A stretch of 64,000 bases of DNA from Nitzschia sp. DOCU1. Its lineage: Eukaryota > Bacillariophyta > Bacillariophyceae > Bacillariales > Bacillariaceae. This document shows positions 4,841-44,747 of the stretch, in pieces. The stretch spans positions 558,001-622,000 of the forward strand of contig OX595999.1 of assembly GCA_951394045.1 (NCBI GenBank), given 5' to 3'. Each line of letters begins with the position of its first letter. Position 1 is the first letter of the stretch. The position numbers were made by a program, and so were the translations under genes. Under the pieces are notes generated by a model. It saw nothing but the letters and a program-made list of their open reading frames with translations, did not search any database and was not told the DNA's origin.

Positions 4841-5435
4841 ACTTCCTGAAATCTCGAATATCTGCTTCTTAACTGGATTTCGTTCTCTTTTTTTGACAAC
4901 AAAAAGTGTCCTTTCTTGCAATTCCACAAACACAGATAGATTCACTGCTACTATTGATGATGATATAATGCTGGTTTGCAAGTTAAGATTAGACTCGCAG
5001 AGCTTACAGTAACTTCTGATCGAACGCAATCACTTCCCCTGCAAGCGACCCCGAAAATGCTGCACCGGCATCGTTTCCGTTGTGTGTGCAAAGTGTAGGG
5101 CCAGACCGTTGGAACGCCCCAAAAAAGTGAGAGACGCGGCGGCGGCCGGCGGACGCACGATGTGCCTACGTTTGAGTCCCATATGAGTGAGTCCTGTTGT
5201 GACGACGGATGGACGGATGGTGGGGCTTGCGCAAAAGAATATGTGACGTTTTTTTCGTGTCTCGCGCCATTGAGCCATCACTTTTCCGACAGGATGCCGA
5301 TCTCTGTTCCATCCATTCATTTTCTTCTCCCATCACCTTCCGACCGTACCAAATCACATCTGCCTATACCTTCCTTCTTCTTCTTCTCCATAGCTGAGTG
5401 TCAAACTACTCTTTAAAATACTGTTGGTGTGTGAC
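4841..5435. other. Shared 5' region of two divergent genes
   Basis: About 600 bp between the starts of the type II membrane protein (minus) and the NYN/phosphoesterase fusion (plus). It should hold both promoters. No TATA box or repeat stands out, apart from a pyrimidine-rich tract (CTTCTTCTTCTTCTCC) at about 5371-5390. Confidence 0.4.
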
Positions 5436-8400
5436 ATGATGAATTTGGTCGTCTTTTGGCCATTTCTAGCCTTGTGGGTCAATACTCGCGGCTTATCACA
5501 GCACCATGACCACCGCACCGGCTCCCTCGGTCGGCATCGCCTGGATGCCACCACCAACACAAGAAGAAGAACGACAAAGTTCGTTCCCCGGTCGGCGTTA
5601 CTGTCCACTCCCAGCAACTCTATCACCAGCACCACCAAACAGCGAGGATATCTGAAGAAAAAGTCGGATCCATTATGGTTCCAACGGATCGTCGTCGGCA
5701 GCAAGAACAACCAACACAATTTCATCATTTGGATTGATTTGGAAAATGTTCGCGGCAAAACTGGATTTGCCAAGAGTCATGAACAAGTCTTGGAGTTGAT
5801 AAAAGTTTGGATTCAGTACTACAAATTAGAACATCATGTGGTGGTTGTGGCTGATCATGGATCTGTCAGTCAAGCCATGTGGGATGAATCGCGGCAATTG
5901 GCTATAGTATTTTCAGGAAATCATGCCAAAGCGGACGATGTCATTGCAAAATTTGTCAATTTGACATTTTTACAGTCTCCGATTCATGGCCATTCAGTGA
6001 TTGTTACGGCCGATACGGAATTGCAAAGTCGATGTCGAAGAGCTTCCAAAGACAATTCGTATTTTATATTGGATCCTGCCACATTTATTGAAGAGTTGGA
6101 AGAAATAGCGGCTGTTGTGGAGCAGCGACGACAACGAGCCGACGAGGAATTATCGTCATCATCATCATCATCACCCAGCATCGTCAATGCCGCAGCAAAT
6201 GAAGCGTCGACCGTCGAGTTATCCTTACAAGAGAAATTACGACTGGGTCAATTGGATGAGGAGATTCGATTACGGGCACAGATTTTAGATGTGCAAGTGC
6301 GACTGGGAAGGGGGCCACGCAAAAAGATGTTGACCAACAAACGACGAAAAAAGTTACAATCCCAGTTGGATCATTTGACCAGTCAATTGGTAACTAAATT
6401 TGGTGGGTCGTCTGGCAGCAGTATATTGGATCAGGTTACGTCTTTGGACGACTTTGACCGAGGAAATATCTGGGGTGGTGTTGTAGATGGACAGGATTCG
6501 TCAGCATCAGCAGCATCGGATTCCACATTGTTGGAGCCTTCCGAGCGAGATCTCATACTGCAACGATGGAAGCAAGTTTCGACCCGAGCATCTCGAAAAG
6601 AACAGACGGGCGATCGTGTCGTCTTGGCAGAACAGCTACGGCGTCAATTATTGAATGGACATTGTATTCAAAACGTTGCACCCGACGAAAAGTTGGGGAA
6701 TTCGCCAGCCAAGGCTTTTGTAAGGTTTTTCAATCTACAGATGTTGGGTCTCGAGCATACGATCGTTCCAGATATCACCGATTATTCTTCAGAACCACAA
6801 ATTGTCACCGAGACCGACGTTTTGGAGGAGCAAGTACTACCGACTCGCACCACTTCCTCCCGCACCACTTCCTCCCAAGAGCTATTGCATGCCGAGCCTA
6901 CAAGTCACAACTCCCGTGAAAACTTTGATCCACTTCCAATTACTGCGGCCATTTCCGATACGCATACTTTCCAACAACAGATTGACCACAATATCAACTT
7001 TTTGGAAGAAGCTTCGACTCCGTTGAACATGTCCACCAAGGTACTATTGCAGAGCGAGCCTTCTCGAAACCCCTTGAAACACTTGGATGAACTTGAAATT
7101 GTGGCCATTTCCGATACTCATGGCTTCGAGGGCCAGTTGTTAAGAGACATCTCAAGTGACAATGGCGATATTAGTCATGGCGTCACTGAAATTCTTCCCC
7201 ATGGTGATGTTCTCTTGCATTTGGGAGATTTTTCCGCCGAAGGGTCTTCGGAAATGGAAGCGAAAGGTTGGACCGATCTTGACGCATGGCTTGCCAAACA
7301 ACCACATCCCATCAAAATTGTGCTTCGTGGCAATCATGATCCGTGGAATTTGGAATTTCAACAATCCGGAGCGTGGTATATTACAGAACCGACGACCGTT
7401 GCCTTGACAGAAAGTCTCTCGCTTGGTGTCATTCCCTTTGGATCTCCCCGCAAATTGACGGCTAGCAGCGGCGTTCCGACCAAGTGTGATATCTTGGCAA
7501 CCCATGTTCCGCCTCTGAAAACTTTGGACCGTACAGTTACTGGAAAGTCGGCAGGCAGTGGCTTTTTGAATCGAGTAGTTTCTAGTATGGGTCAGCATGC
7601 ACCTCGTTTATGGTTGTGTGGGCACATTCATGAAGGTAGAGGAGTGGCTGAGCGCCACTTTGGTGCTCACTCCACAATGGTCATCAATGCTGCCAACGCC
7701 AATAGGGGAAGGGCAACCCATCTTGATCATGGTGCCGTCGTGCTTAAGATCCACAAGGATCCTACGGACAAAGTACAGATTCTATCGATGGAGGACAAGA
7801 GCTTTGCGGAGAAGCTGGCGTTAAACGACCAGTTCTTTCTTGCCACACGCAACAGGGATGCGAGTTCAACTGAAACAATTGAAAATATGCTGTTGGCGGT
7901 CGATCTAGGTCTCAAATCAGGTGTGGCTCTCTTTGGGCGTCGGGGTAAATTGTTGCGGTATGAGCAGTTCCACTTTGAAAAGTCTTCGCTGGATAGCAGC
8001 GTCAAAAGACTCCTTGCTGAATGGGAACGAGAGCTAAATGAGGAACAAGGGGGTCAAAAGGAGCAGGAGGAAAAGAATCCGTCCTCTGCAAGAATCACTC
8101 ATGTTGCTATCGAAGGGGCCGATGGATATATGCTTCGCGCCTGGGCAGATGCTGCCTTGGATCTATCCATATTGAGGGTATCCCCAGAGGAATGGCGTGC
8201 GGAGTTGTTGCTGGAGAAGGAGAGAACATCGGGATCCAGTGCCAAAGCAGCATCCCGCTTGATTGCAAGACAGGTTGTGGAAGATTTTGGTGCAATGCCC
8301 CGTCACGTTGGCAAATTTCCAACCGATGTGGCGGAAGCAGTATGTTTGGGGCTTTATGTCAGCCACAAACTTGGGTGGGTTGAGCGAGCAGGTCCCGTCG

Positions 8401-8441
8401 TTCGCCGATACTCGAACGGCAATGTGATAGTCCCAAAATGA
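5436..8441 (+). CDS. NYN nuclease - calcineurin-like phosphoesterase - RuvC-like fusion
   Basis: 1001 residues from the first ATG (the open frame upstream starts at TTG). A hydrophobic N terminus suggests a signal peptide. Residues about 94-231 form a NYN/PIN-like nuclease domain: IDLEN with Asp101 and Asn104, KADD with Asp167/168, and VTADTEL with Asp193. A low-complexity, partly coiled linker follows. Residues about 553-775 are a calcineurin-like metallophosphoesterase with the full set of metal motifs: SDTHG (Asp560, His562), LGDFS (Asp598), GNHD (Asn633, His634), ATHVP (His690) and GHIHEG (His730, His732). Residues about 817-980 resemble a RuvC/RNase H-like fold, with LAVDLGLKSG (Asp823), IEGAD (Glu893) and PTDVAEA (Asp964). 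A degenerate copy of the first phosphoesterase motif sits about 52 residues upstream. Substrate is unknown; all three parts keep plausible catalytic residues. The gene ends 67 bp from the convergent rhodopsin kinase. Confidence 0.85.
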   Translation: MMNLVVFWPFLALWVNTRGLSQHHDHRTGSLGRHRLDATTNTRRRTTKFVPRSALLSTPSNSITSTTKQRGYLKKKSDPLWFQRIVVGSKNNQHNFIIWIDLENVRGKTGFAKSHEQVLELIKVWIQYYKLEHHVVVVADHGSVSQAMWDESRQLAIVFSGNHAKADDVIAKFVNLTFLQSPIHGHSVIVTADTELQSRCRRASKDNSYFILDPATFIEELEEIAAVVEQRRQRADEELSSSSSSSPSIVNAAANEASTVELSLQEKLRLGQLDEEIRLRAQILDVQVRLGRGPRKKMLTNKRRKKLQSQLDHLTSQLVTKFGGSSGSSILDQVTSLDDFDRGNIWGGVVDGQDSSASAASDSTLLEPSERDLILQRWKQVSTRASRKEQTGDRVVLAEQLRRQLLNGHCIQNVAPDEKLGNSPAKAFVRFFNLQMLGLEHTIVPDITDYSSEPQIVTETDVLEEQVLPTRTTSSRTTSSQELLHAEPTSHNSRENFDPLPITAAISDTHTFQQQIDHNINFLEEASTPLNMSTKVLLQSEPSRNPLKHLDELEIVAISDTHGFEGQLLRDISSDNGDISHGVTEILPHGDVLLHLGDFSAEGSSEMEAKGWTDLDAWLAKQPHPIKIVLRGNHDPWNLEFQQSGAWYITEPTTVALTESLSLGVIPFGSPRKLTASSGVPTKCDILATHVPPLKTLDRTVTGKSAGSGFLNRVVSSMGQHAPRLWLCGHIHEGRGVAERHFGAHSTMVINAANANRGRATHLDHGAVVLKIHKDPTDKVQILSMEDKSFAEKLALNDQFFLATRNRDASSTETIENMLLAVDLGLKSGVALFGRRGKLLRYEQFHFEKSSLDSSVKRLLAEWERELNEEQGGQKEQEEKNPSSARITHVAIEGADGYMLRAWADAALDLSILRVSPEEWRAELLLEKERTSGSSAKAASRLIARQVVEDFGAMPRHVGKFPTDVAEAVCLGLYVSHKLGWVERAGPVVRRYSNGNVIVPK

Positions 8442-8508
8442 AATTGCAGGAAAGCAGAATGGATCTTTAACCCAACTTGGCGCGCTTGATGTACATTAGT
8501 TTACTTTG

Positions 8509-11482
8509 CTATTGACTTTGCTTGAATCGTTCCGCCCAGAGCGGAGCAAGAATTTCTCTAACTTTCTCACGATCCATGGGTGCTTTTGGGAAGAAACCGT
8601 GCGTTCGGCTTAGATAAGTAGCTAGGTCACTTGTTGAGTCATTCGCTGATCGTACAAGAACAAAAACTCTCTTTTCATCCTCAGGAGGCAACGCAGCTAG
8701 GACGTCTTTCATCACTTGTGATCCAGACATAATTACCACTTCTTCCCCCTTTTCCCCGTAGTCGAGGTTTTCATCAACCATGACAAGGATCTTGCGGTCC
8801 GCGTTCTCTTTGAGGGCGTCTTTGATCAACTTTTCCAGCCCATAAATGTCAGACGGTTTTTCCCCCACAACCATCTTACGTTCATCGGGAATACCAACAA
8901 GACCCAAAATTCTGGACATTAACTTGCGCTGGATTTTTGAGTCATCAATCGCCAATCCCACTGTCTCGGGTGGGACTTCAAAGTCAGCAGAAATAATTTT
9001 CTCCGCGGGCTTCACCGCTTCAGTGGGACATTTGAAAGAAAATTGCGTCATATCTTTGTCAAAATGGATAGCGCAACTGCCTCCCATGGCCTTGGCACAT
9101 TTCTGGGCAATCCACGCTCCATCTCCCGATGAAATGTATCGATCTTTTATGCTAAGATCCTTGTGGAGCCTTGATCCTTGCTGAAAAACAGATCTACTGG
9201 CAGCGTCGCCCAGTTCCATAAGCTTCTCGTGTCCAGCACCAGGGTCGTTGATGACTTGAAGCTCAAACTCTTTTGTATCGGCATGGTATGCGACTAATGT
9301 CACTACCAAGCCGCCTTGGCTGCCGTATTTGCAGGCGTTTGATACGGCATTTCGATGTATGTATCGAAGCAACTGAGGATCCAATTTTAGACAAGGCATG
9401 TCTGGTTGAGCCGTTCGCACTGGGAATCTCACAGCATTCTTCCCTGTACTTCGGAGCAGATCTACAACGTCAATGCTCTCATACCTGGGATGGTAGACTT
9501 CGTGGATGACGTCGCGAGCCATAGCTTCAGCCAACACGGTATCCAAAACTTCGTTTAGATTACTGTCCAGCTCCACAAGGCGATTCCAGCAATCATTGAT
9601 GTTGTTCCCTACATCGAGAGGCTCATTCGACGTAGCAATGACCTCAGCGGCTGCGCCCCGTGCTTTCTGGATGTCACCAAGAGCATTTCTCAGACCATCA
9701 ATTAGTTCAATGCCAACAAGCAGGCCGTTCTTGACTTCATGGCGGACAAATCGAGTTTGCTGTGTACGGGTGGTCCAAAAGTGAGTTCACAATAGTTTTT
9801 ATAAGAAGACAAGAAGTGACCATAAAACTTACCGATTGGGACTCCTTTTGCCTGCGAAGCGCTTCTGCTTCTGCTTTGCGTTCCGCTTCGAAACGTCGAA
9901 ACCGTTCCGAGACGTCACGGACAATGGCGATCATGCCATTTTCGGCATGCGGCACAACCTTCATTTCACAATTGCATTGGGAACCATCCGATCGAGCAAA
10001 GTCGTATGAAAGAAGTGGAGAGGCGTCCTTGGGCGGGTTGGTGATGAAAGACCATGCTTCTTTGACCATACTAGAAGCAATTTCACCCTTGAAGGAATCC
10101 GGCTCCACTCGAGCCTCAACTGATGCCTCCTGAAATGACTCAAAGGCAACATCAGACGAGTCGACATGGTAGATTTTCTGAATTTTGCCAAGAGATCGTA
10201 CTGGTTCATCGTCGTGCAGGAGTAACTCGCTTTCAATTTCTCTTTCAAATTCAACCACCAGCGCTTTCTCTTCACCAGGCTTTGTGTGTGTTCGACCAGT
10301 CAAGAGCCCATCGAAAGCCGGTGAAAAAATAGTCAAACACTTTAGCTCGTGTTTGATAGATAAAACAATCATGTCCGAGCTGGAGCTCCACAGCACAGAC
10401 ATGAGCCGCCGAAGCTCGGCTAGCTGACGCTGCGCCAGACCTTCCGATTCAAAAACGGCCTTGTGCGTGTCCATAATTTGCCTCATATAAAGTGACTTTG
10501 CCATGACGTCGAATCCTGCATCGACGTACATGGCCAAAGAATAAGGTCGGAGGAAATGCCCAACAGGCAACACCAAATGGGCATAGGCATTCGCAGCGAA
10601 AGCAAACACCAGAGAGCTCCATACCAGAGCACATATCAACATCAGCTCATAAGAGTACTTGTGTCGATTGTATCGCTCCATCTCCGCGAATGAGCTCCCT
10701 CTTGGCGTGGCATAGAAAATCCTGTACTTGTAGTATAATCGGGGGAAGATTGGCACAAAGGTGACAACAGACAAGAACAGGGCGATTGACCAAGAGATGA
10801 TGCCCGGACAGAACGGAAAGACCAGCCCGAATATGCAGGAGACAGTCTGGCACAACGAGTATAGAACTGCAGCTCGCAATGCTTCCTTGGTTCGTGGAAC
10901 GTCCACAGCGTCACAGAGAAACGTCATAAGGCCAGCGCACGGAATCCACTCGCACCAGCGAACGAGAAAGACCCTTGAGTGGATGATTGGATCAACTTTT
11001 ACGACGGTAGGTGCAAAAGCGAGAATTCCGTTTGTAACCATGGAAATAATCATAACGACAAGGCCTGCATAGACGATTCCACTCATATCACCGACTTGGT
11101 GGCGGAAAAAGACAAAGGTAATTGCAACCATGAGCGTCGACATCGCCGCAACAGAGAAGGCAATGGTGGCCACTGTTCGTTCACCGTCTGGAAGATATTC
11201 CCATTCTTCCACTGGGGTGATTTTGTAAACAAAATAAAGGAGACCAAGAAAGACGGCGGCTGTCATGTTTGCGGCTATCGGGAACATCTTATTCACTTTG
11301 TAGGTGGAAATTAACGGCTTGTCGACATCCTCCATGGCGGCAACACCCGGCATCATCCTCCTTAGCTGCCACTGGGCAGGCATGAGAGCAAATCCAGTTG
11401 CATCGTCGCTCTGGGGGGCCTTGGAGGGATGTGAAGGCATTGGATTCACCTTATTGTCAATCGATCGCGATCCTTCGCACAT
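8509..11482 (-). CDS. Hybrid histidine-kinase rhodopsin, copy 1 (HKR1)
   Basis: Two exons: 11482-9833 and 9759-8509, joined across a 73-bp GT..AG intron in phase 0, giving 966 residues. About eight hydrophobic helices (66-88, 102-126, 133-157, 168-192, 201-223, 227-247, 278-303, 312-336) carry microbial-rhodopsin signatures. Helix C has RWCEW (Arg175, Glu178 at the counter-ion place of bacteriorhodopsin Asp85, Trp179). Helix F has WS (288-289). Helix G has DVMAK with Asp325 and Lys329, matching the retinal Schiff-base lysine. Residues about 355-510 are PAS-like, ending GMIAIVRDVSER. A coiled linker leads to the H-box FVRHEVKNG (His557), the N-box YIHRNAVSNACKYG (Asn691), the G1 box DPGAG (Asp722) and a G2-like SGDGAW. 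The receiver has Asp822/823, phospho-acceptor Asp879, Ser921 and Lys942. It is predicted to be a membrane photoreceptor kinase. The absorbed colour and downstream partner are unknown. Confidence 0.88.
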
Positions 11483-12513
11483 ACTTTCGACTGCGGTAGT
11501 TGGCGGGTAGTGTCTCGGCGCTGAAGCGATTTTGTGGCCCCTACGAACAGGAAGCGCTGCGAGGCGTTATGACTGCCCATGATGGAAACACGCTGCAGAA
11601 CAAAATCGATAAGTTCCGGTTGAAGAGATGGAGGCGGCAGATTGACAACCTCTATCATAAAGCGTATTTCTTGACACAACAGAAGCCTTAAGGCATATCA
11701 TCGACTCTCACTCTGTCTGCAACACAAGTGTTATTAAACATTCAGGTGGAGGACAAGAACTGGACTGAATTCCCTTTTTTAATGATTATGCCAGCGTTAA
11801 TGCGGAAGAAGGGAGCATTAGTTTTTCCTTCGATATGAACTATTTATTATTTAACGTCCTGGTCATTGACGTCCAAGACCGCATGGTGTGGAGAAAAATA
11901 TATTTAGGTTCGCCAATTTATTTAGGAAAGTTTCAGATGTCAATTGGAGTAAGGATATGCTGCGAAACCATTTTACAGCTGAAAAGAAGGCTTCTGTCTG
12001 TTCTTTTTGACGTAGAATTGATCAGCGTCTGTTCCTAAAACAGGACCAATCATGTATCGTACAAGATTTTTTACGAAAGGTCGCGATCACATTAAAATAC
12101 GACTGTAGATAGCGTGATACAAAAGTACAGTACTTACGCATAGTATTAGCTACTTTGTTGAAGGACCGTCTGTGATGCCGGAAACGTCCGAGAAACTACA
12201 GTGTAGCTACTCTGGAGAGAGTAGATTGCTTCATCGACGGCTCAATCGACTAGTAGCATCTGCGCAGTACTAGTAAGGTTCATACTTTTGTAGCCCTGTG
12301 GCGGCCGCTCAAGAAGAATCCTTGAGTTCGTCCTTCGATCCAGTACAATGGGGCAACATTTGAATGCTTGGTTCATGCCAGCACTTACGCCAATAAGGAG
12401 TTAGCGGTCAGATGAATGATGAACCGCCCGAGCTGCAAAGTCACAGTTTTGTAGACTTGCGATAGTTGAATGGCGATGGCTTAGGAGGAGCACATCTCGT
12501 GTCCGTCCCGATA
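11483..12513. other. Spacer between HKR1 and HKR2
   Basis: About 1 kb upstream of HKR1 and downstream of HKR2. No coding frame is convincing. It must include the HKR1 promoter. AT-rich stretches lie at 11820-11950, and near-palindromic TAC/GTA motifs such as AAAAGTACAGTACTTACG occur at about 12120-12140. Confidence 0.4.
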
Positions 12514-15488
12514 TCATCGTGGGTCCTTTTCAAATCGTTCAGCCCACAAAGGGGCGAGAATCTCTCGGACTAGGTCGCGATTCATCGGAGCCTTTGGGAA
12601 GAATCCGTGCGTGCGGCTCAAGTAGGTGGCCAGATCGGTCGTTGAGTCGTTCGCTGATCGTACAAGAGCAAATACTCGTTTCTCGTCCTCAGGTCGCAAC
12701 GCTGTGAGAATGTCTTTCATTACCCTCGAACCGGAAAGAACCACGACCTCCCCACCCCGGTTTCCGTAGTCAAGATTTTCGTCAACGATGGCTAGAACCT
12801 TGGCCTGCGGTCTAGATTTGAGAACATTGAGAATAATGCTTTCCATCTCAAAGACGTCAGATGGCTTTTCCCCGATTACAGTCTGCCGATCTTCCGCGAC
12901 ACCAACGAGTCCCAAAATGCGAGACAAAAGCTTCCGCTGGATTTTGGAGTCATCAATCGCAACCCCAATTGTCTCAGGAGGGACTTCGAAGTTCACCATC
13001 GTCACCTTATCGGTCGGGACAAGTGATTCCGCTTTGCACCTGAAAGAGAAAATTGTCAGATCTTTCTCAAACTTAATCCCGCAGCTGCCCTGCATGGCTC
13101 GGGCACATTTCTGTGCAATCCAAGCTCCGTCTCCAGAGGAGATAAATCGGTCCTTAATGCTAAGATCTTTGTGCAGCTGGCGCCCCTGTTCAAAAACGGC
13201 ATCGCTCGCTGCCTCCCCAAGTCCCATCAATTTGTCGTGGCCGGGGCCAGGTGTATTAAGCACTTGAAGCTCAAACTCTGAAGTGTCCTTGTGATACGTG
13301 ATGAGTGTTGGAACCATGTCCCCTTGCTTGCCATACTTGCAAGCGTTAGATACTGCGTTGCGATGTATGTAGCGAAGCAGCTGCGGGTCCAAACGAACAC
13401 GAGGCCTGTCTGCTTGCGTCATGCGTACTGGAAAACGTTCTACGTTGGAGCATGAGTTCCGAAGCAGGGCAACAACATCAATGTTTTCAAATCTCGGCTC
13501 ATACACTTCTTGAATCACGTCGCGGGCCATGGCTTCCGCCAGGACCGTATTCAAGACTTCATGAAGGTTACTGTCGAGTTCGCCAAGACGCTTCCATGCA
13601 TTTGAAATATTCGCATCGGGAGCAGAGCACAACGAACTGGGAGCCTTGCTGATCTCAGGCTCGTCGTCGTGTTTGGGAACAATACCAAGCGCATTTCGAA
13701 GGTTATCGATCAGTTCAATTCCAGCAAGCAATCCATTCTTAACTTCGTGGCGGACAAAGCGTGTTTGCTATGCGGGGAAGGAAATGACCAACGGGATTAG
13801 TGGTGGGACCGAGAGCGAGGTCAGTGTTACACTGACACACTTACCGACTGAGACTCTTTCTGCCGTTTCAATGCTTCAGCTTCTGCCTTCCGTTCGGCTT
13901 CGAAGCGTCGAAACCGGTCTGAGACATCTCGAACTACCGCAATCATGCCATTCTCAGAGTGTGGAAGGATTTTCATTTCACAGATGCATTTACTGCCGTC
14001 ACGTCGTTCAAAGTCAAAAGGCACAAGTGGTGAAGAATTACTTTTCCGAGTGGCGGATATAACAGCCCAGCCCTCGTTGAGTATTTGGAGAGCGATTTCA
14101 GCCTGAAACGATTCCGGCTCGATCTGAGACTCGACAGCGGCTTCATGGACGAACTCAAAGTTACAGTCTGAAGAGTCCACGTAATAGACCCTGAGGACCT
14201 TTCTGAGCTCGTTCGTCTGGCCATTATTCTCGTCATCAACGTTCCATTCCACTTCCATGACGAGGGCTTGTTGCTCGCCCGAGTCATTCTCCATCGGGGG
14301 CTTACCGGTCAACAGCTCAGAGAATGCTGGCGAAAAGAGAGTCAGGCATTTTAGTTCATGCTTGATCGAAAGCACAATCATATCTGAACTGGAGCTCCAC
14401 AATACAGACATGAGTTGACGTAGCTCGGCTAGCTGACGCTGCGCAAGACCTTCCGATTCAAAAACGGCCTTGTGCGTGTCCATGATTTGTCTCATGTAAA
14501 GTGATTTGGCCATGACATCAAAGGCGGTATCAACATACATAGCCAGGGAATAAGGCCGGAGGAAGTGGCCAGGCAGATACATTACGTGGGCGTAGGCATT
14601 CACAAAATAGGCAAACACCAGAAAACTCCAGAGCATGGCACATAGCAACATTAGCTCATAGGAGTACTTGTGTCGATTGTATCGTTCCATATCCGCAAAG
14701 GAGTTTCCCTTTGGCGTGGCAGCGTAGATCTTATACTTGTAGTACGTTCTGGGAAAAACTGGCGCCCAAGTGGCACAAGCCAAGAATATTGCAATTGACC
14801 AAGATATGATACCCGGACAATATGGAAAGATCAGACCGAATACGCAGGAGAAGGTTTGGCACAAGGAGTAAAGGATTGCTGTGCGCAAAGCGTTTTTCGA
14901 CCTTGGAACGTCCACAGCGTCGCAAAGAAATGTCATAAGGCCAGCACAAGGGATCCACTCACACCATCGAACGAGAAAGACTCGCGAGTAGATGATTGGG
15001 TCTTCCTTTACAACAGTGGGAGCAAAAGCGAGGATTCCATTGGTGGTCATGGAGATCGACATGACAACTAACCCAGCATAAACTATACCGCTCATTTTAT
15101 CTTCCTCGCGACCAAGGCCAAACTTGACACACACAGGTATGATAGACATGGCGGCGATTGCAAACGCTACGGTTGCCACTGTTCGTTCGCCATCTGGTAG
15201 ATATTGCCAGTCTTCAACCGGATTGATAGCATAAACCAGGCAGAGCAGAGCAACGCAGGCAGCTGCTGCCATGTTGGCAGCTGAGGAGAACATACGATTC
15301 ACCTTGTATGTGGCCATCATGGGCTCGTTGATGTTTTGATTCGCGCCCCCATTGTCGGGTATTCCCATTTTGTTCACTTGCCACATGGCTGGCATCAAAG
15401 CAAATCCACCAGAAGCATCCTGATTCCTCTTGGCGACGTCGGCTGTCAATGTTGAATCCTTGTCTGCAGATCGGGATCCTTCACACAT
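12514..15488 (-). CDS. Hybrid histidine-kinase rhodopsin, copy 2 (HKR2)
   Basis: Two exons: 15488-13845 and 13767-12514, with a 77-bp intron at the same phase-0 position as HKR1, giving 965 residues. The start is the ATG of MCEGSRS, shared with copy 1; the longer frame begins with TTG. The membrane part keeps RWCEW (Arg174, Glu177, Trp178) and DVMAK (Asp324, Lys328). It is followed by the PAS-like region ending GMIAVVRDVSDR, the H-box FVRHEVKNG and the N-box RNAVSNACKYG. The receiver keeps its DD pair (VAIDDSKIQ), IVDENLDYG, VRSAND and FFPKAP. The G1 box reads TPGPG instead of DxGxG, so the adenine-contacting Asp is missing (codon 13252-13254, Thr). Light sensing and phospho-acceptance look possible, but kinase activity is doubtful. 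The linker after the H-box differs from copy 1. The gene is a tandem duplicate in the same orientation. Confidence 0.87.
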
Positions 15489-16284
15489 AGTTACCGTCTC
15501 CAAATGATGAGCCTACTGCCGGTAGTAGATAAAGAAAGAATGGGCAACAGGAAAAGAGATTCTTCAATATGATGATGTACACAATGCAGTTGTTTAAGAA
15601 TGGAGATTGATGCGGTTTCGAGGAGAAGAGAGCAGTGAATTCACATCTCGCAGCGCAAAAGGCTCAATACAAGGCACTCTGCTTCCCCCCCCCCACGAAC
15701 GCAACAGCTTGCACAAAACTTCAACGAGCTTCTGTGGCCCATTGGGGACTAAAGTTCTTGGGACTTCGTTCAACCGCTAACCTGACAGATAGAAAAAGTT
15801 CTGAATTGCCAACTTAATTAAAGCTTTTAACAGTTCAGACAGCCGGCGTCGGTCCACGTCATGCATATTCATACCGATGTCCTTCAAACATGGCATATCA
15901 TTACGGCGAACAAGGCTTATATTAGAAGTAGGCAACGTCATCCGGATTATGGTTCGTCAATTTACGAATGAAGGTGCCCAATGACGCAGGCATATCAACA
16001 GTTTCTATGAATAGTGCTGACGGAAGACACGTCACCAAGATGACAGTACAGTTCGTCGATTTCCGACAGTAATTCCAGGCCTCTAATTAATGCCTCTCTT
16101 CACCGTCGGAAGCTGTGGACGATGCTGAGAAACGAAAAACAGCTGCGAGGAACAGATCCGACCAAGAACCCTTCAACAAAAGAGATCAAAAAGACCCCAT
16201 CCTCAAACGTACGAGACCATCAAGTAATAGTTGGTCAACATCCCGTCGACGAGGAAGAATGAACGCGTCTCACATCAATGCTCG
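15489..16284. other. Spacer between HKR2 and HKR3
   Basis: About 800 bp with no supported gene. It contains an imperfect palindrome CTACTGCCGGTAGTAG at 15513-15528, just upstream of the HKR2 start, and a C tract at about 15687. It must hold the HKR2 promoter and the HKR3 3' end. Confidence 0.4.
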
Positions 16285-19200
16285 TCAAGACATTTTCTGT
16301 CGTTTCGAGGGAGGCACGTCAAGACTGCCATTGCAATCAAAGAATCGCTCTGTCCACAAGGGTGCCAAGATCTCCCGGACTCTGTCGCGGTTCATTGGGG
16401 CTTTCGGAAAGAAACCATGTGTCCGTTCCAAGTAGGTGGTGACATCATCAGTCGAATCGTTCGCAGATCCGACTATTGCGAAAACGCGCTGCTCTAGTTC
16501 GTGGTCCAACGATGCAAGAATGTCTTTCATTATGCGTGAACCCGACAAGATCAAAAGCTCTCCACCTTGTTCTCCATAATCGAGATTTTCGTCCACCAGA
16601 ACAAGCACTTTGGAATGAGGATTCGAGACCAAAATCTCCCGAAGAATGCGTTCCATTTGCATGGCGTCTGAAGCATTTTCACCAATGACAGTCCTTCGAT
16701 CCTCGGCCACCCCCACGTGCCCCAAAATGCGCGAGATCAGCTTTCTCTGGATTTTGGAATCATCAATCGCCACGCCGAATGTATCGGGAGGGACTTCAAA
16801 ATCCGCTGCATTGATTCGGTCTGCTAAAATCAGTGGTTCGGCAGGACACGTGAACTGAAAAACTGTGCGGCCATCCTCAAATCGTATACAGCAAGAACCA
16901 CCCATGGCGCGGGCACATTTCTGTGCTACCCAAGCTCCATCGCCCGATGATATGAAGCGGGCTTTGATTTGAAAGTCTTCGTGTAACCGGCAACCTTGTT
17001 TGAAGACTGTATGATTGGCCACGTCCCCAAGTTCCATAAGATGTTCGTGTCCCGGCCCTGGAATATTGATGACTTGAAGCTCGAATTCCTTCCGGTCGTG
17101 GTGGAACGTGACGCAGGTATCCACTGGCTCTCCTTGCTTTCCATACTTACACGCATTGGAGAGCGCATTGCGATAGATGTAACGAAGTAGCTGAGGATCG
17201 AGCCGAAGAAAGGGCAAATCTGGTTGGGAGGCGTGTACAGGGAACCGATCGCCATTGGAGCCGTCTGTCTGCAACAACGACAGAACGTCAATATTCTCAT
17301 ATCTTGGATGGTAAACTTCATTAATGACATCCCGTGCCATTGCCTCAGCCAAGACAGTGTCTAAGGCTTCGTGCAAGTTGTTGTCCAGCTCTCCAATGCG
17401 CTTCCAACACTGAGCAAATCTCTGAACCATCGGTGGTTCTCCCCCTGCCTGATGAATGCCTTCCTGAGGACGAGATGCCGAACCAGTACTCGCCGGTTCA
17501 ACGTATGGAGTGCCTCCCTGATGACAATCCGCCAGATCAGTGCTTGCCGGTTTAACATGTGTAGTGCCTACCTGAGGAAAAAATGAAAGACCAGTGCTCA
17601 CTGGTTCAACAGTTGGAGTGCTGCAGATTTTCTCAATGTCATCGACAACGTTTCGCAGGCCATCGATCAGTTCAATGCCCACGAGCAGACCATTCTTGAC
17701 TTCGTGGCGGACAAAACGAGTAAGCTTCGTGGTAGAAGAAATGGAATGGGGGAAACGTTAGGCGTATTCGTGGTATCTTCCACAGCTATTTCCGCACCGC
17801 CTACTTCTTGCTTACCGACTGGGACTCTCTCTGTCGCTTCAGCACCTCCGCTTCGGCCTTGCGCTCGGCTTCAAAACGTAGATATCGCTCCGACACATCA
17901 CGTACTACGGCGATCATGCCGTTTTCGCCCTGCGGTAGAACTTTCATCTCACAGTTGCATTTGGCACCGTTTTCTTGTTGAAAGTCGAAAGATGCCAATC
18001 GTGATACGACGTTTTGCCGGGTCTCCAAAAAATCCCAGGCCCTACAGACCAGAGTACTAGCAATGGACACACTGTACGACTCTGGGTCGATCGTTTCGCC
18101 ATAGGAGGCTTGGTAGAAAGCTTCAAAAGCAAATTCAGATGCATCGATGAGATATGCTTTGCGAATTGGCCTACGGCTAACACCGTGCGATCCGCCTTGC
18201 AATGCCACTTCTTCCTCTGCTTCCCATTCGCACTCCGTTTCCAAAACCAATGCTGTTTGTAAATCTTGAGGCATTGTCGCTTCACCCAACAAGAATCCAA
18301 CCAAAGCTGGAGAGAACAAGGTCATACATCGAACCTCATGCTTGATGAACAAGATAATGAGGTCCGAACTTGTTGTCCACAGAACCGACATGAATTGTCG
18401 AAGTTCCACCAGCCGTCTTTGAGCCAGCCCTTCGGATTCGAATACAGCATGGTGCATTTCCAGGATTTGCCGGAGGTATAGAGATTTGGCTATCGCATCA
18501 AACGCCGCGTCAACGTACATGTTAAGCGAGCGTGGTCGTAAATAGTGACCTTCTGGCAGTACGAAGTGGACATAGCCGTTGATCACGAATGCGACAACGA
18601 GCACAGTCCAAAGCCACGTACATATAAACATTAGCTCGTATGCATGCCGATGCCGCGAATAGCGTTCCGTTTCCATAAAGGAGCTGCCCCGAGGCGTGTT
18701 GAGGAGTTTTCGTTGCTTCGAACTCAATCAAAAGAAGATCGGTATGTACATCGCAAAGGAACAAAACATTGAAATAGACCAGGAAATTATACCCGGGCAG
18801 AAGGGAAACACCAAACCGAACACACAGCAAGCAGATTGACATAGTGAAAACCCCACAGCTTTGTGCAAGGATTCTTTGGAGCGTGGCACGTCCACGCCGT
18901 CGCAGAGAAACGTCATCAGACCAGAGCATGGGATCCATTCGCACCATCGAATAAGAAAGACCCTAGTATGTATGAGTGGATCGATCTTCACCGGAGCCGG
19001 AGTGCACGCAAGCATACCATTGGTTATCATAGAAATAGCCATGATGACCAAGCCAGCATAGACAATTCCGGTCATGTGCCCAGATCGCTGGTGCCGCAGT
19101 ATGAATGTGGCGGCAACCGAGACGAATGAGATGCCGGCAATGAATGCCGTGATTGTAGCAGCCATACGTTCCCCTTCGTCAAGATTCTGTTTCTCATCTA

Positions 19201-19441
19201 CCGGGAAGATCTTGTAGACAGAATACAACAACACCAGAAATACGGTTGCCGCAATGTTTGCAGCAATTGGAAAAATTCGGTTCAGGCGGTAGGTTGACAG
19301 AAGACGACCACCCTGGATATCCTTTTCAAAAGGGGGCAGCGGGCCTTCCGTCCCATGCTCATCCTTCGAGCATTCCGTAACATTTGCTGACACCAGTGGC
19401 TCCACTTGAATCAAGCGATCGGACAACGTCGAATCGCACAT
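16285..19441 (-). pseudogene. Hybrid histidine-kinase rhodopsin, copy 3 (HKR3), one in-frame stop
   Basis: Exons 19441-17816 and 17724-16285, with a 91-bp intron in the conserved position. The start MCDSTLSD aligns with MCEGSRS of copies 1 and 2. Helix C RWCEW and helix G DAIAK keep the counter-ion Glu and retinal Lys. PAS, H-box FVRHEVKNG, N-box RNALSNACKYG and the receiver (IDDSKIQ, VDENLDYG, GSANDS, FFPKAP) are all readable. A single TGA at 18728-18730 interrupts the frame in the loop between two helices. HKR1 has CGA (Arg248) at that place, and the next ten residues are also diverged, while everything else stays open over about 1020 codons. The G1 box reads IPGPG, without Asp. The linker after the H-box is expanded by an 18-residue repeat. 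It may be a young pseudogene, a sequencing error or a readthrough gene; I list it as a pseudogene because of the stop. Confidence 0.75.
17449..17610 (-). repeat. Three 54-bp coding repeats in the HKR3 linker
   Basis: Three successive 18-residue units, starting VEPVSTG, VKPASTD and VEPASTG, lie between the H-box helix region and the ATPase domain of HKR3. The partial copy at 28.7 kb has a single unit (VEPASTG). The expansion keeps the frame. Confidence 0.8.
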
Positions 19442-28171: not shown

Positions 28172-28636
28172 GGGGAGGAAACAAGCAAACAAGGACTCTT
28201 CCTTGTGTGTAGTATTAATTTTAGTACACTAGAACCACTCTACATATGAATGAATACGCAAGAAATCTACCTACTAACAGAGGTTGTAATCGACAACAAA
28301 TCTACGACTTAGCGGAGTGATATACCAGAGTAGAGTACAGACAGTCAGCATCAGCAGTAGTACTCTTTTCTTGCACGGATGGCCACATCCATCCAAGCAG
28401 CAGCAAAACAGAACGGCTACCTACTACCGGTATTGGTGAAACATTCTGGGACATCCTCCTCTAGCTACAGTATCTCTCTCTCTCTATCCATCGATCGTCT
28501 CTCTCTCTCTATCGATCGATCGATCGATAGAGAGAGAGAGAGAGAGCGAGAGAGGTGGCAAACTATCTACCGTACCAGGTAGTTAGCGCGTCGCTAAGAA
28601 ATCTATCGCAAGGCAAAATCTACCAGTTCGAATGGC
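28172..28636. other. Spacer upstream of HKR4 fragment, with simple repeats
   Basis: About 465 bp without a gene. It contains CTACTACCGGTA at 28421-28432, a CT/AG palindrome at 28498-28541, and TACCGTACCAGGTAG at 28568-28582. No promoter-like element is recognisable. Confidence 0.5.
28498..28541. repeat. 44-bp perfect palindrome (CT)n-ATCGAT-(AG)n
   Basis: A 13-nt TC tract, an 18-nt self-complementary ATCG repeat and a 13-nt AG tract form a perfect inverted repeat that could extrude as a cruciform or fold as an RNA hairpin. It lies about 95 bp before the HKR4 homology starts. Confidence 0.9.
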
Positions 28637-29980
28637 ACCACGAAGCTTACTCGTTTTGTCCGCCACGAAGCCAAGAATGGTTTGCTCGTGGGCATTGAAC
28701 TTATCGATGGCCTGCGAAACGTTGTCGATGACATTGAAAAAATCTTCAAAGCTCCAAGCGTTGAACCGGCGAGTACTGGTCTAGCGTCTGGTAATCAGCC
28801 ACAAGAAGAACCTTGGAAACGCATTGGAGAGCTGGACAACAACTTGCACGAAGCCTTAGACACCGTCTTGGCTGAGGCCATGGCGCGGGATGTCATTAAT
28901 GAAGTTTACCATCCAAGATATGAGAATATTGACGTTCTTTCATTGTTGCGGACAGACGGCTCCAATGGCGATCGGTTCCCTGTACGCGCCTCCCAACCAG
29001 ATTTGCCCTTTCTTCGGCTCGATCCTCAGCTACTTCGTTACATCTATCGCAATGCGCTCTCCAATGCGTGTAAGTATGGCAAGCAAGGAGAGCCAGTGGA
29101 TACATGCGTCATGTTCCACCACGACCGGAAGGAATTTGAGCTTCAAGTCATCAATGTTCCAGGCCCAGGACACGAACATCTTATGGGACTTGGGGACGTG
29201 GCCAATCATACAGTCTTCAAACAAGGCTGGCGGTTACACGAAGACTTTCAAATCAAAGACCGCTTCATATCATCTGGTGATGGAGCTTGGGTAGCACAGA
29301 AATGTGCCCGCGCCATGTGTGGTTCTTGCCGCATACAATTTGAGGATAGCCGCACAGTTTTTCAGTTCACCTGTCCTGCTGAACCACTGATGCCAGCTGC
29401 TCCAATAAACGCAGCGGATTTTGAAGTCCCTCCCGATACATTTGGCGTGGCGATTGATGATTCCAAAATCCAGAGAAAGCTGATCTCGCGCATTTTGGGG
29501 CACGTGGGGGTTGCTGAGGATTGAAGGACAGTCATTGGTGAAAATGCTTCAGACGCCGTGCAGATGGAACGCATTCTTCGGGATATTTTGGTCTCGAATC
29601 CTCATTGCAAAGTGCTTGTTTTGGTGGACGAAAATCTCGATTATGGAGAACAAGGTGGAGAGGTTATGATCTTGTCTGGTTCACGCGTCATGAAAGACAT
29701 TCTTGCATCATTAGACCAAGAAATGGAGCAGCGAGTGTTTACAATACTCCGATCTGCGAACGATTCGACTGAGGATGTCGCCACCTACTTGGAACGGACA
29801 CATGGTTTCTTTCCGAAAGCCCCAATGAACCGCGACAGAATCCGGGAAATCTTGGCGCCCTTGTGGACAGAGCGATTCTTTGATTGCGATGGTAAGCTTC
29901 TTGATGTGCCTCCCGCAAAACGACAGAAATTGTCTTGACGAGGATTGATGAGACGCGCTTCATAGTTCTTCGTCGACGGG
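28637..29980 (+). pseudogene. HKR4: partial duplicate of HKR3 exon 2
   Basis: A plus-strand copy of the kinase-receiver exon of HKR3, in opposite orientation about 11 kb away. Similarity starts 9 bp before the exon-2 splice acceptor (ACCACGAAG) and ends about 40 bp after the stop codon. Coding homology runs 28646-29938. It has FVRHEAKNG (Val of the H-box changed to Ala), the N-box RNALSNACKYG, a G1 box VPGPG without Asp, and a receiver with IDDSKIQ, VDENLDYG, RSAND and FFPKAP. There is no rhodopsin, no PAS and no in-frame ATG at the front. A TGA at 29522-29524 breaks the receiver where HKR3 has CGA. Apart from that stop the frame is intact and close to HKR3, so the duplication is recent. Probably non-functional. 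Confidence 0.88.
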
Positions 29981-38933: not shown

Positions 38934-41168
38934 TTAGCCTTCGTCAAGTTCGACGAGATCCGCAGTATCTCCTTCCCAAAACAACAATGCTCGCAGCGTC
39001 TTCCATACGTCGCTATATCCCCAAGCCTTCGAAAGAATATCCGCAGGGTTCTTCTTTCCTGGGATATGGAGCAAAGCAATGATGCCTGCTGCAACCGCTT
39101 CGCGAACACGATGGTAAGAAAGGATCACATGGCGTTTCGTGAGCTTGGCGGATGGGTTTGACGCACTATCGCACATCGTCTTGTTGTCCCCGAACATGAA
39201 TGATTTTCCTTGGACTGGGACACCTAGGTAGCGTAGCGTTGTCCTTAAGTCGATCACCTGTTCAGTAGCTTGACGACCCGACATGAATTCGCTGCCATAC
39301 GTAGCTGTCTCGACGAGCGGTTGCTTCTTGGAGAAGTAATCGATCGGAGTTTTGTTCACGAAGTGAAGAATCCCTGTGACGGACTTTCCTGTCGTCATAT
39401 CATGGCAGAGATTAGCGTCAAAATAAGTTGAAGTCACAACCGGCTTACCGAGCGGCTCTGGTGCATCTTCCGGGACTAGTTCTTGTACATCACCATACAC
39501 ACTGGTGGCCCAACTGTAGTCCGGGATCGGAACTGCCGAGAAATCAGGAATTCCCGTTCTGAAACGAATCGCGCCGTTTTGCATTTTCGCCAAATATCCA
39601 TAAACGCGTTTGATTCTATCAAGGTGGCCTTTCCTGGGCGAAGCTCGAAAACTCGAAAGCGTCATTACCGCGGTAGCGATATCGAAGCGACCCAACGAGA
39701 TGACCCATTGTGCAGCACCTATCATCAACTGATACTGTTTTATTCCTTCTGCGCCGAGCTCTTCTGAATCGTCAAGCTCTGGGTGATCGCCTTTCTCTAG
39801 GGGCGAATGGAACTTCTGGCTTGGCTTGGTGCCGAACAATCGCTCGTAGGTTTCGATCATTCGTTCAATATACCTTTTCGGCGCCATACATAGCACTCCA
39901 TCCGAATCGCGATAGAAGTCAGCCCCAAGATGGTAGCTAATCGGGCCCGTGCCTTTCAATTTAAACTTGTAGTGGTCGGATAAATCGTGGATAATTTCTT
40001 GATTCCGTTTCGACAAAATCGCGAGATCGTCAACATAGCGCACGATGTATTCCCAATGATCTCCGTTCTTGCGCATCCAAATATCGGCTTCCGCTCTCGA
40101 TGGCATGAATCCCATCTGCTTTAAAACCTCGCTGAGTCTTTCCCACCACATTTTTCCGCTTGTAAATAGTCCGTACAAAGCCTTGGATATGATGAGAGTG
40201 TGTCCCTCTCTATCTCCGAACTCGGGTCCGGCTATGACGTACACTTTCTTGTCCGTCTTCGCTTCGAGGTAGGCATTGCCTATATCCGTCGTCCAAACGT
40301 CAAGATTGTTCAGTTCTGCCAGGAATAGACAGAGTCTCAAACCTCTTAAAGAAACTACGCTTGAGTAGACCGACGAGATCGGTGTGGGGGCTTGGTTGCC
40401 GTTGGCGACCAGCCGCGCCTTCCTTCGGAGATCGTGCTTCACATCGTACACGATATGATAGTGGATACGTTTATATCCGCTTGGTCGGGCGCCCTTGCCA
40501 CAGTCCTTGAAGGTTTCGTATTCATCGATCTGCCCTAACTCCTTTAGTTCAGCCTGGCGCCACAGGTCGTTGCCGTTCTTACGGTCCAACTCCATAGCAT
40601 GTTCGTGGCTCCTTGGGACCTCTACTCCAAACTTGTAGAGAGGCGCGGTCCTAAACGACTTGAGTTTTGCTTGGTTGGCCAAACGGAGAAGCTTCTTTTG
40701 TCGCCGAGCAAGCCATGCAAACTGCTTCCATCCCTCGAGGTTGAGCAAATTATTTTCGCTTGCATAGATGGCGCAAGAGACTGGATCACTCTTCGAGATG
40801 ATCGACAGGGGTTCGTAGGTAACCTCCCCGTTTTCCCAGCTAACTCTCACATTCCATCGTGATCCCTTGTAGTTAGGGTCCGTACGAGTGAGGGGACCTT
40901 GGTGGGCATCGATCGATCGGAATTTCCAAACTTCATCCGTCCCGTCAGCCTCTTCGAGCTTATCAAGAATCTGATTATACGTCTTGATTTCCTCGTAGTT
41001 GCCGTCCGAACTAACTGCTTTGAAACGGATGACCACATCGTTTGCGTTGACTCTCCTCTCAATGTCGTCGAGTGCCTCCACGATTCGTAGTCGGAGGCGA
41101 GTACCGTCTTCAGCAGGAATCGAGAGATAAGTCCGACCGATAATATCCTCTGGGTCGATGATCGCCAT
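38934..41168 (-). CDS. Copia reverse transcriptase - RNase H
   Basis: 744 residues. The reverse transcriptase shows KARLVANGNQ, WTTDIGNAYLEAKT, LYGLFTSGKMWW and the catalytic YVDDL. The RNase H part shows the DAN (YFDANLCHD), TYGSEF and DNKTMCDSAS blocks and ends in HIPGKKNPADILSK. All core motifs are intact. The frame is the same as that of the upstream gag-integrase frame, from which it is separated by one TGA and four codons, so the ATG at 41168 may not be a true start: translation could come by readthrough or from a separate initiation. The N-terminal 110 residues probably belong to the integrase tail. Confidence 0.92.
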   Translation of the reverse strand: MAIIDPEDIIGRTYLSIPAEDGTRLRLRIVEALDDIERRVNANDVVIRFKAVSSDGNYEEIKTYNQILDKLEEADGTDEVWKFRSIDAHQGPLTRTDPNYKGSRWNVRVSWENGEVTYEPLSIISKSDPVSCAIYASENNLLNLEGWKQFAWLARRQKKLLRLANQAKLKSFRTAPLYKFGVEVPRSHEHAMELDRKNGNDLWRQAELKELGQIDEYETFKDCGKGARPSGYKRIHYHIVYDVKHDLRRKARLVANGNQAPTPISSVYSSVVSLRGLRLCLFLAELNNLDVWTTDIGNAYLEAKTDKKVYVIAGPEFGDREGHTLIISKALYGLFTSGKMWWERLSEVLKQMGFMPSRAEADIWMRKNGDHWEYIVRYVDDLAILSKRNQEIIHDLSDHYKFKLKGTGPISYHLGADFYRDSDGVLCMAPKRYIERMIETYERLFGTKPSQKFHSPLEKGDHPELDDSEELGAEGIKQYQLMIGAAQWVISLGRFDIATAVMTLSSFRASPRKGHLDRIKRVYGYLAKMQNGAIRFRTGIPDFSAVPIPDYSWATSVYGDVQELVPEDAPEPLGKPVVTSTYFDANLCHDMTTGKSVTGILHFVNKTPIDYFSKKQPLVETATYGSEFMSGRQATEQVIDLRTTLRYLGVPVQGKSFMFGDNKTMCDSASNPSAKLTKRHVILSYHRVREAVAAGIIALLHIPGKKNPADILSKAWGYSDVWKTLRALLFWEGDTADLVELDEG

Positions 41169-44100: not shown

Positions 44101-44708
44101 GCGGTAGACAACGTGGCGCGCTTCCACTCGTCCCATTTTGCTTCATCTTTCAATTCTGCATAATGTGTCTTGTCACGCTTAATTCCTTTCTTGAAATCAC
44201 TTGCAAGAGAATTTGCGGGTCTGTTCTGAGGGTTGGTCGCATTCGGTGGCGCACCAGGCGGGGGAGCGGTATTACTCGCACCCGAGGATGGCGGCTTTCG
44301 TGGCAACGGGTCATCGGGATCATAGATCGATACCCTGAATTCATCCCAATCATCTGGATTCACCAATGTGCTATCAGACCAATCAACCTTGCGTAACGAA
44401 TAAGACTGCAATAGGTGATAATTCCACGCCTTGAGAATTTTCACCATGTTGCGCTGCGGGAGCGGAATTGGCTTCGCTGCTCCGGAGTCCGTAAACGTTA
44501 AATTATCAACTTGTCGGTCCGTAAGGGCCAACAGATCAGACATGCTTTTAATCCCAGCGCCATCGAGCGCCTTCAACAAACCATCTTCGTCCTCCAAACC
44601 CAACACATCCTTCAACACACGTTCGAAGACCGCTCGGGTCATCGAGCGCGTCGTCGGCGACGGTTGCCCTCCTCCGCCGGGGTCACCGAGTCCAGCTCCA
44701 CCTGGCAT
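41181..44708 (-). CDS. Copia gag - protease - integrase
   Basis: 1175 residues from ATG 44708 (the frame upstream begins with GTG). The first 550 residues are gag-like: an acidic helical N terminus, a Pro-rich part and a capsid-like helical region, without any CCHC zinc knuckle. The protease active site reads LVDRGANGG, so the usual D-S/T-G is D-R-G. The integrase core has VATDTIYSDVPAID (first Asp), VLVSDRA (second Asp) and QNPAERQ (Glu), followed by NNRLARGSLDWRTPYEKLLGHTPD typical of copia elements. The frame ends LIH-stop at 41181, then continues in the same frame into reverse transcriptase. Confidence 0.9.
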   Translation of the reverse strand: MPGGAGLGDPGGGGQPSPTTRSMTRAVFERVLKDVLGLEDEDGLLKALDGAGIKSMSDLLALTDRQVDNLTFTDSGAAKPIPLPQRNMVKILKAWNYHLLQSYSLRKVDWSDSTLVNPDDWDEFRVSIYDPDDPLPRKPPSSGASNTAPPPGAPPNATNPQNRPANSLASDFKKGIKRDKTHYAELKDEAKWDEWKRATLSTAASHGVDNIFDPTYKPKTADEFYLYMEQQKFVYDVLNAKLLTSQGQFLVKKYESTRDAQTVWKEYLEHVESSTKALMERRQLNLKITQTRLPADYNGSYLAFLNNWLDLFRRYEALSPTSAYYTDDQKKDALQAMLFSHKEFSHLDDFDFYQMGAGMTSSSFEQYLNSVQRVAMKLDQKKADTRRDAVRTRSVNFTGVFDASDERGYEETQDDGPGDFDDEMEYLAFVTNTGTRNRFQPRRPAMPKDVWYKLRSEDQKAWDQISDEGKRAILFAYKEATAASQNRKISAPQPPARRANVSEQEETVEPDDADKGEQGETETGQEETYDLDRLINLASSRKNVDPLDIANMMSSGSSAMKNDDWKKVGSKNKKNLKINTSVNVHVINYKVSRANTIPSMSLVDRGANGGIAGDNVSVIATTDRRVNVSGLNNHELNDLKIVTAGGVAPTKRGEVIFIMHQYALIPGSSTIHSSLQMETFGQGVDDKAVACGGKQEIETVEGHLMPLDMKNGLPYLPMRPYTDKEWQDLPHVVLTSDVDWDPSQYDLAQSTNDEWYQQEDEDVPPLLLRYDDTDPTEEPISISVNWHLTANLDFMKSELDPDDDFRFDDFRFYPGMTTLEVAMRRIRPADRDYSRYRRFFLNASEDTIARTFQATTHYARSGVIEGPITNTIRAPFPALNVCRRNEPVATDTIYSDVPAIDSGCRAAQFFCGVDTKFSDIYGVQMDGDFIRVLQDNVRRRGAMDVLVSDRAKAEISRRVKDLLRHLCINEWQSEPHQHHQNPAERQYRLIKRATQHVLNTTNAPPYCWLLAMEYVCFINNRLARGSLDWRTPYEKLLGHTPDISMITRYAFWDKVYVKRIEARGGNFPSVGNEIEGRFVGFSETVGHPMTYKILTSDTKQVIYRSRIRLASDGINWRATAEAQEEAVAERPAAGNQDDNEPANGEVDDDGNPHVVFDPGGNEEVIANDALPNLIH

Positions 44709-44747
44709 CACTCACTTTTGCAGCCGTAGCTGTTGCGACTGTTAATC

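Follow-up and report, generated by a model that had tools for sequence, protein, structure and literature searches.

Tandem genes for putative histidine-kinase rhodopsins in the diatom Nitzschia sp. DOCU1

Does a diatom encode rhodopsins coupled to histidine kinases, a combination described so far mainly from green algae? The question is raised by a 64,000-nucleotide stretch of Nitzschia sp. DOCU1 (hereafter the window; assembly GCA_951394045.1, contig OX595999.1, positions 558,001 to 622,000), in which three genes, here called A, B, and C, each join a membrane domain with rhodopsin-like motifs, through a PAS-like linker, to a histidine kinase that carries a receiver. We suggest, with a probability of roughly 0.78, that A and B, along with C in its uninterrupted form, encode members of a divergent family of histidine-kinase enzymerhodopsins that feeds a phosphorelay. 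This reading is drawn from sequence, and fold, retinal binding, light control, and the direction and targets of phosphate flow are predictions.

The array occupies positions 8509 to 19441 of the window on the minus strand, in a host assembly of 52.1 Mb and 63 contigs. Three consecutive minus-strand genes had been placed here by a first-pass annotation made from the sequence; they are present, arranged in tandem at a spacing of ∼4 kb, and conserved. All share one gene plan, with an exon 1 of ∼1.6 kb, a single intron of 73–91 nt at an identical place, and an exon 2 of 1.25–1.44 kb. Spliced A and B encode 966 and 965 amino acids, both without an internal stop, and spliced C has 1021 codons including one internal stop. 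Three relatives, P0003, P0005, and, from MMETSP transcripts, P0006, support the single-intron model, as each is continuous across the junction that joins QKESQS to QTRFVRHEVKN. The features are as follows:

8509–11482, minus strand: gene A, whole, intact
12514–15488, minus strand: gene B, whole, intact
16285–19441, minus strand: gene C, whole, interrupted by a TGA
9833–11482, minus strand: gene A exon 1, membrane (rhodopsin-like) and PAS-like region, 550 codons (open frame, homologues, common splice junction)
10448–11305, minus strand: gene A residues 60–345, eight hydrophobic peaks read as a leading transmembrane helix (TM0) and helices A–G (family-averaged hydropathy)
10946–10960, minus strand: gene A RWCEW, residues 175–179, helix C motif (paired by hhalign with bacteriorhodopsin R82–W86; conserved)
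10496–10510, minus strand: gene A DVMAK, residues 325–329, helix G motif with candidate retinal lysine K329 (paired by hhalign with bacteriorhodopsin D212–K216)
9760–9832, minus strand: gene A intron, 73 nt, GT..AG (sequence; relatives continuous here)
8509–9759, minus strand: gene A exon 2, H-box (RHEVKN, H557), ATPase domain, and receiver
9022–9381, minus strand: gene A HATPase_c, exon-2 residues 127–246 (Pfam, 27.9 bits, cut-off 26.4)
8521–8973, minus strand: gene A receiver, approximately exon-2 residues 263–413 (hhalign score of 34.3; five invariant residues)
13845–15488, minus strand: gene B exon 1, membrane and PAS-like region, 548 codons
13768–13844, minus strand: gene B intron, 77 nt
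12514–13767, minus strand: gene B exon 2, kinase and receiver (68% identity to exon 2 of A)
17816–19441, minus strand: gene C exon 1, interrupted (frame unchanged across one TGA)
17725–17815, minus strand: gene C intron, 91 nt
16285–17724, minus strand: gene C exon 2, kinase and receiver, open frame

Exon 1 of A as a query recovers 23 database relatives with 37–71% identity, a profile search adds P0024 and P0025, and gene E of the host genome as a query adds 22 more, for a total of 47. Exon 1 is matched at five places in the host genome itself, namely in A, B, and C and in two further tandem genes, D and E, on contig 9 (L103:892–4415 and 5636–9072) at 27–29% identity, in which RWVEW and EVISK replace RWCEW and DVMAK and the intron lies ∼16 codons further downstream than in A–C. 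A and B share 68% identity in each of their two exons. Among A, B, and C, nonsynonymous divergence (dN) is 0.21–0.38; exon 1 of A and B has a dN of 0.21 and a synonymous divergence (dS) of 1.9, and dS is saturated and not computable for the other five exon pairs. Low dN relative to high or saturated dS indicates that the copies are old and have been under purifying selection. Along with the identity between A and B, and motifs that are nearly invariant in 47 aligned sequences, it also argues that the array is not a product of chance.

Both motifs highlighted by the first-pass annotation, RWCEW and D(V/A)xAK, hold up. RWCEW starts at residue 175 in A, 174 in B, and 165 in C, and the helix G motif is DVMAK at residue 325 in A and 324 in B and DAIAK at residue 315 in C. 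Residues were counted across 47 rows, comprising 43 of the 47 database proteins plus A, B, D, and E; fragments P0021, P0023, P0042, and P0044 were left out, three of which show the helix G lysine motif, and P0023 has RWCEW and lacks helix G. In the numbering of A, K329, W288, W231, and D164 are present in all 47 sequences, and R175 and E178 in 46 each (P0025 has Q and P0047 has A, respectively). Position 176 is aromatic throughout (W in 46, Y in one), position 179 is W in 46 and F in one, and position 325 is an acid in 46 (D in 25, E in 21, Q in the remaining one). The sequences with E at position 325, the place of bacteriorhodopsin D212, make up most of a second subfamily; to our knowledge, E is unusual at this place among type-1 rhodopsins. 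W179 and W288 correspond to W86 and W182, two residues of the bacteriorhodopsin pocket. Hydropathy averaged over the family peaks above 0.9 eight times, at residues 79, 116, 145, 180, 216, 237, 289, and 324, with RWCEW on the fourth and K329 on the eighth, and two more peaks of 0.67 further along the chain. By hydropathy, the membrane domain fits the layout of TM0 plus seven helices that a passage of PMC12558739 gives for enzyme rhodopsins.

Profile-profile alignment links the membrane domain to rhodopsins. We compared, with hhalign, 44 of 47 family membrane domains (P0016, P0036, and P0045, with membrane domains of at most 250 residues, were left out) to 27 rhodopsin rows, of which 14 are haloarchaeal and include bacteriorhodopsin, nine are from plasmid records, and four were cut from one Halobacterium genome; two of the 27 (L081 and L082) are wrongly cut open reading frames (ORFs). 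The 217 aligned columns begin with helix A and reach the end of helix G, with a score of 42.2 (probability 62, E = 7.7e-5) and 13–14% identity. Swapping roles gives a score of 51.9 (probability 88), and using A and bacteriorhodopsin as masters gives scores of 38.6 and 43.9 over 218 and 185 columns. As the first-pass annotation had aligned them, R175, E178, W179, D325, and K329 fall on R82, D85, W86, D212, and K216 of bacteriorhodopsin, and W288 falls on W182. Across 200 shuffles of columns within hydrophobicity classes, scores average 15.2 (standard deviation of 2.5) with a maximum of 23.4, and the reversed profile scores 15.2. Each subfamily alone scores 30–36 over 180–220 columns. Silicon transporters, for which the genome has 18 exon matches to Silic_transp (PF03842; best E = 8.2e-181) that support a diatom host, served as a membrane-protein comparison: ten sense ORFs score 17.5 and 17.2 against the rhodopsins but, over 53 columns, reach 26.3 with the family. 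Since the latter exceeds the shuffle maximum, short local scores in the mid-twenties are no evidence of kinship. A comparison with Bax1-I, made with fragmentary ORFs of one gene and of little weight, gave scores of 10–15.

Searches of 177,635 PDB sequences, in which bacteriorhodopsin for scale matches 186 at E ≤ 0.001, point the same way. The search for microbial rhodopsins that the first-pass annotation had proposed found none with single membrane-domain sequences, in either Pfam or the PDB, whereas the three best PDB matches of a profile of 41 sequences from both subfamilies are type-1 rhodopsins. It has 11 matches at E ≤ 10, led by 7pl9 (named “Rhodopsin”; E = 6.6e-5), 7cj3 (0.0038), and 7d7q (0.0083), and followed by an antibody chain at 0.19; the two stretches of 7pl9 singly have i-Evalues of 0.0087 and 0.36. 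The alignments are centered on RV..VR[YW].EW, and those of 7cj3 and 7d7q start one helix ahead of helix A. We take 7pl9 to be bestrhodopsin and 7cj3 and 7d7q to be rhodopsin phosphodiesterase. Adding the second subfamily and bacterial rhodopsins is what made both the PDB profile search and the hhalign comparison positive. On these grounds, the membrane domain is very probably homologous to type-1 rhodopsins.

Several observations weigh against a retinal-binding rhodopsin. None of A, B, and C matches PF01036 at E ≤ 10. Matches to this model occur in two of 23 and two of 41 members, all below cut-off; the best (E = 0.038) reaches 13.9 of the required 24.6 bits and covers profile positions 9–185 of 224. 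Narrower family profiles of 25 and 23 sequences had S-layer proteins as best PDB matches (E = 0.06 and 0.18), with the rhodopsin phosphodiesterase at E of only 0.62–0.72 and 9.3, and a first hhalign comparison of a narrower family with haloarchaeal rhodopsins alone failed. When the 27 rhodopsin rows are aligned singly to the family profile, five exceed 23.4 (Pantoea, 49.7; Salinibacter, 43.8; Methylobacterium, 34.5; Sphingomonas, 27.8; Haloarcula, 24.0), with bacteriorhodopsin at 12.6, although the shuffles compare profile with profile and do not calibrate scores of single sequences. From these scores, the link to rhodopsins is, at the profile level, real and carried mostly by bacterial rhodopsins. 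Other families are matched over the first helices at least as well as PF01036, likewise below cut-off. YccA is matched by six of 23 members, with a best E of 8.1e-7 (P0003, residues 36–119), and a re-scan of ten members found it in A, P0002, P0003, and P0004 and not in P0006, B, P0001, P0007, P0008, or P0024. The first piece of C matches DUF350, also below cut-off (E = 6.5e-4). Natural variants of the helix C motif include RYCAW in P0047, which is without the acid, and QWCEW in P0025, which is without the arginine. A search of the genome for Brp/Blh had no match, with a control that was equally silent.

These points can be read in other ways. If the proteins were sensor kinases unrelated to rhodopsins, from Bax1-I/YccA or another helical family, the weak YccA, DUF350, and other matches seen in part of the family would be genuine signals and the motifs alike by chance. 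We consider this very unlikely: the YccA matches of the five members with known coordinates span ∼85 residues, all ahead of the helix C motif, whereas the alignment to rhodopsins is collinear over 217 columns and scores above all 200 shuffles, and rhodopsins take the first three places in the PDB search. A less distant alternative, improbable but deserving more weight, is an opsin-derived receptor kinase that works without retinal and senses a ligand, pH, voltage, or membrane state, the lysine and acids forming structural salt bridges. The very low identity to known rhodopsins would suit such a protein, as would the two members that lack the helix C acid or arginine, and a PF01036 search of the genome for a pump has no match, with controls equally silent. 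Retention of the lysine in 47 of 47 sequences, of W179 in 46, and of W288 in 47 argues instead for a retinal pocket, and carotenoid oxygenases are encoded in the genome (RPE65-family genes at five loci) and might supply retinal. Least plausible is a protein that mainly pumps or conducts ions in response to light, with the kinase secondary. Its one attraction is that the top PDB match, 7pl9, is presumably a rhodopsin-channel fusion. The proton donor D96 corresponds to L189 when helix C is counted ungapped by hand and to M186 in hhalign; neither is acidic, thus an ion pump is unlikely, and enzyme rhodopsins are without pump or channel activity according to a passage of PMC12558739.

The second half of each protein is consistent with a hybrid kinase, with some domains less clear than the first-pass annotation, which had listed PAS, HisKA, HATPase, and receiver, suggested. 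A Pfam search with exon 2 of A, B, and C (E ≤ 10) found HATPase_c, at 27.9 bits in A, over the cut-off of 26.4, and at 26.1 in C and 17.6 in B, under it, and found neither HisKA nor Response_reg. HisKA is suggested by a motif, the RHEVKN H-box being present in A–E. PAS is weak: a PAS-like stretch follows the membrane domain, and PAS_4 is matched below cut-off in relatives P0009 and P0010 (E = 0.01 and 0.02). The receiver is recovered by comparison with the genome's own: the last 150 residues align to 20 receivers with an hhalign score of 34.3 over 108 columns, versus a mean of 12.9 and a maximum of 22.6 in 100 shuffles. For this test, P0025, P0034, and P0035 were left out (from 15 to 12 kinases), and P0045 is outside the H-box pattern used to pick kinases. 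Exon-2 residues D272, D273, D329, S371, and K392 (822, 823, 879, 921, and 942 of A) do not vary among the eight kinases aligned. NCBIfam has weak hybrid-kinase matches in exon 2, and a profile of the signaling half has weak kinase and receiver matches in the PDB (best E = 0.058). In the same eight kinases, the D-box of the ATPase domain, usually D.G.G, is N.PG.GH, and it is NEPGMLH in P0039. Elsewhere in the genome, HPt is found at two places and there are at least 51 receiver matches, hence components of a phosphorelay are available.

Combined, these features suggest how a histidine-kinase enzymerhodopsin of this family might work. The N-terminal domain would be a divergent member of the type-1 rhodopsins with one additional helix in front (TM0 plus A–G). 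In it, retinal would form a Schiff base with Lys329 on the last helix, and Glu178 of helix C and Asp325 of helix G would act as counterions. Light would isomerize retinal and shift helix G, which is predicted to continue into a linker helix (YMRQIMDTHKAVFESEGLAQRQLAELRRLMSVLW) and then the PAS-like module, such that the movement switches a kinase that is probably dimeric. Autophosphorylation of the histidine (H557 in A), with ATP held by HATPase_c, would be set by this movement, and the phosphoryl group would pass to the C-terminal receiver (Asp879), then to HPt proteins, and on to response regulators. In green-algal histidine-kinase rhodopsins (HKRs), a passage of PMC12558739 has the kinase inhibited by light. 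The sign of the effect may differ in the diatom family, for which control as such is what we predict.

Relative to known systems, the diatom proteins resemble HKRs such as Chlamydomonas HKR1 and Ostreococcus Ot-HKR in having rhodopsin, histidine kinase, and receiver in that order on one chain, and in the eight helices given in part of PMC12558739 for enzyme rhodopsins. Compared by description, they differ in their diatom host, in a PAS-like module between the parts, and in having no Pfam cyclase after the receiver. The rhodopsin phosphodiesterase (7cj3 and 7d7q, named “Phosphodiesterase” in the PDB and presumably Rh-PDE) is aligned over the leading helix and helices A to C, with RYAEW for RWCEW, but its enzyme is a phosphodiesterase, and the match covers ∼110 residues at E of 0.004–0.008 and was obtained with the widest profile. 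Bestrhodopsin, if 7pl9 is correctly identified, is the best PDB match (RVYAVRYMEW versus RVFLVRWCEW) and includes the leading helix in one of its two stretches, but it is presumably a fusion to a bestrophin channel and has no kinase. Bacteriorhodopsin-type proteins (PF01036) pair at R82, D/E85, W86, W182, D/E212, and K216 with helices A–G collinear, whereas the family is below the Pfam cut-off and has E at the place of 85, E at that of 212 in 21 of 47 sequences, and no acid at that of 96.

Diatom xanthorhodopsins are already known (PMC10627834); in the available text of that paper, enzymerhodopsins appear once, in the title of a reference. We found no description of histidine-kinase rhodopsins of diatoms or ochrophytes among titles and abstract openings of the open-access literature, a scope that excludes subscription papers and preprints. 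We tentatively propose, at slightly short of even odds, that diatoms, and perhaps other algae behind the divergent metagenome relatives, have a class of histidine-kinase enzymerhodopsins that is ancient, evolved separately, and is split into two deep subfamilies, distinguished by the usual aspartate or a glutamate (FE..SK.WY) at the helix G counterion. Tandem arrays would possibly be sets tuned to color or sensitivity on one phosphorelay, and profile libraries would have missed the class because its members are singly too divergent. If true, a major group of ocean algae would have a directly testable light input, diatom receiver and HPt genes would gain a role, optogenetics would gain a kinase-coupled rhodopsin, and Pfam-level screens would be capable of overlooking whole rhodopsin lineages.

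A tree built from 45 membrane domains places B beside P0001 (99/96) and then P0024 (95/92) and pairs D with E (98/92), with A and C at an unresolved fork. Because B sits nearer to a sequence from another source than to A, the duplication that separated A and B probably predates this species. P0024 has 75% identity to A in exon 1 but clusters by its membrane domain with B and P0001 (95/92); gene conversion or uneven rates are possible explanations.

Gene C differs from its neighbors by an in-frame TGA at 18728–18730 (minus strand), which is absent from the first-pass annotation. It is codon 238, inside the membrane domain, and corresponds to residue 248 of A, a position that is invariant across 23 aligned relatives. 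The frame of the kinase exon is open. The TGA may reflect a pseudogene, an extra intron, an allele, or an assembly error. Twelve in-frame GT..AG pairs of 27–129 nt span it and leave the frame open, but each would delete codons that C has in common with A and B, and a further intron is thus unlikely. The window also has a partial second copy of this gene:

28639–29938, plus strand: orphan copy of the kinase exon of gene C (93% identity over 1126 nt and 91% over 146 nt)

The orphan copy has its own in-frame TGA at 29522–29524, and a dS of 0.21 relative to gene C indicates a younger copy. The exon 1 search of the genome found no membrane exon beside it. Just before it, at 28470–28560, a TCTC/GATC run is followed by a mirror GAGA run, forming an inverted simple repeat.

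A scan of viral contigs with bacteriorhodopsin found nothing. Elsewhere in the window, a 1005-amino acid frame at 5424–8438 (plus strand) encodes a calcineurin-like phosphoesterase joined on the same chain to a weakly matched NYN (YacP-like) domain. Copia-like retroelement remnants with an RVT_2 reverse transcriptase lie at 38934–41168 (minus strand), and adjoining them, at 41181–44711, is a 1176-amino acid frame with no Pfam match at E ≤ 0.01.

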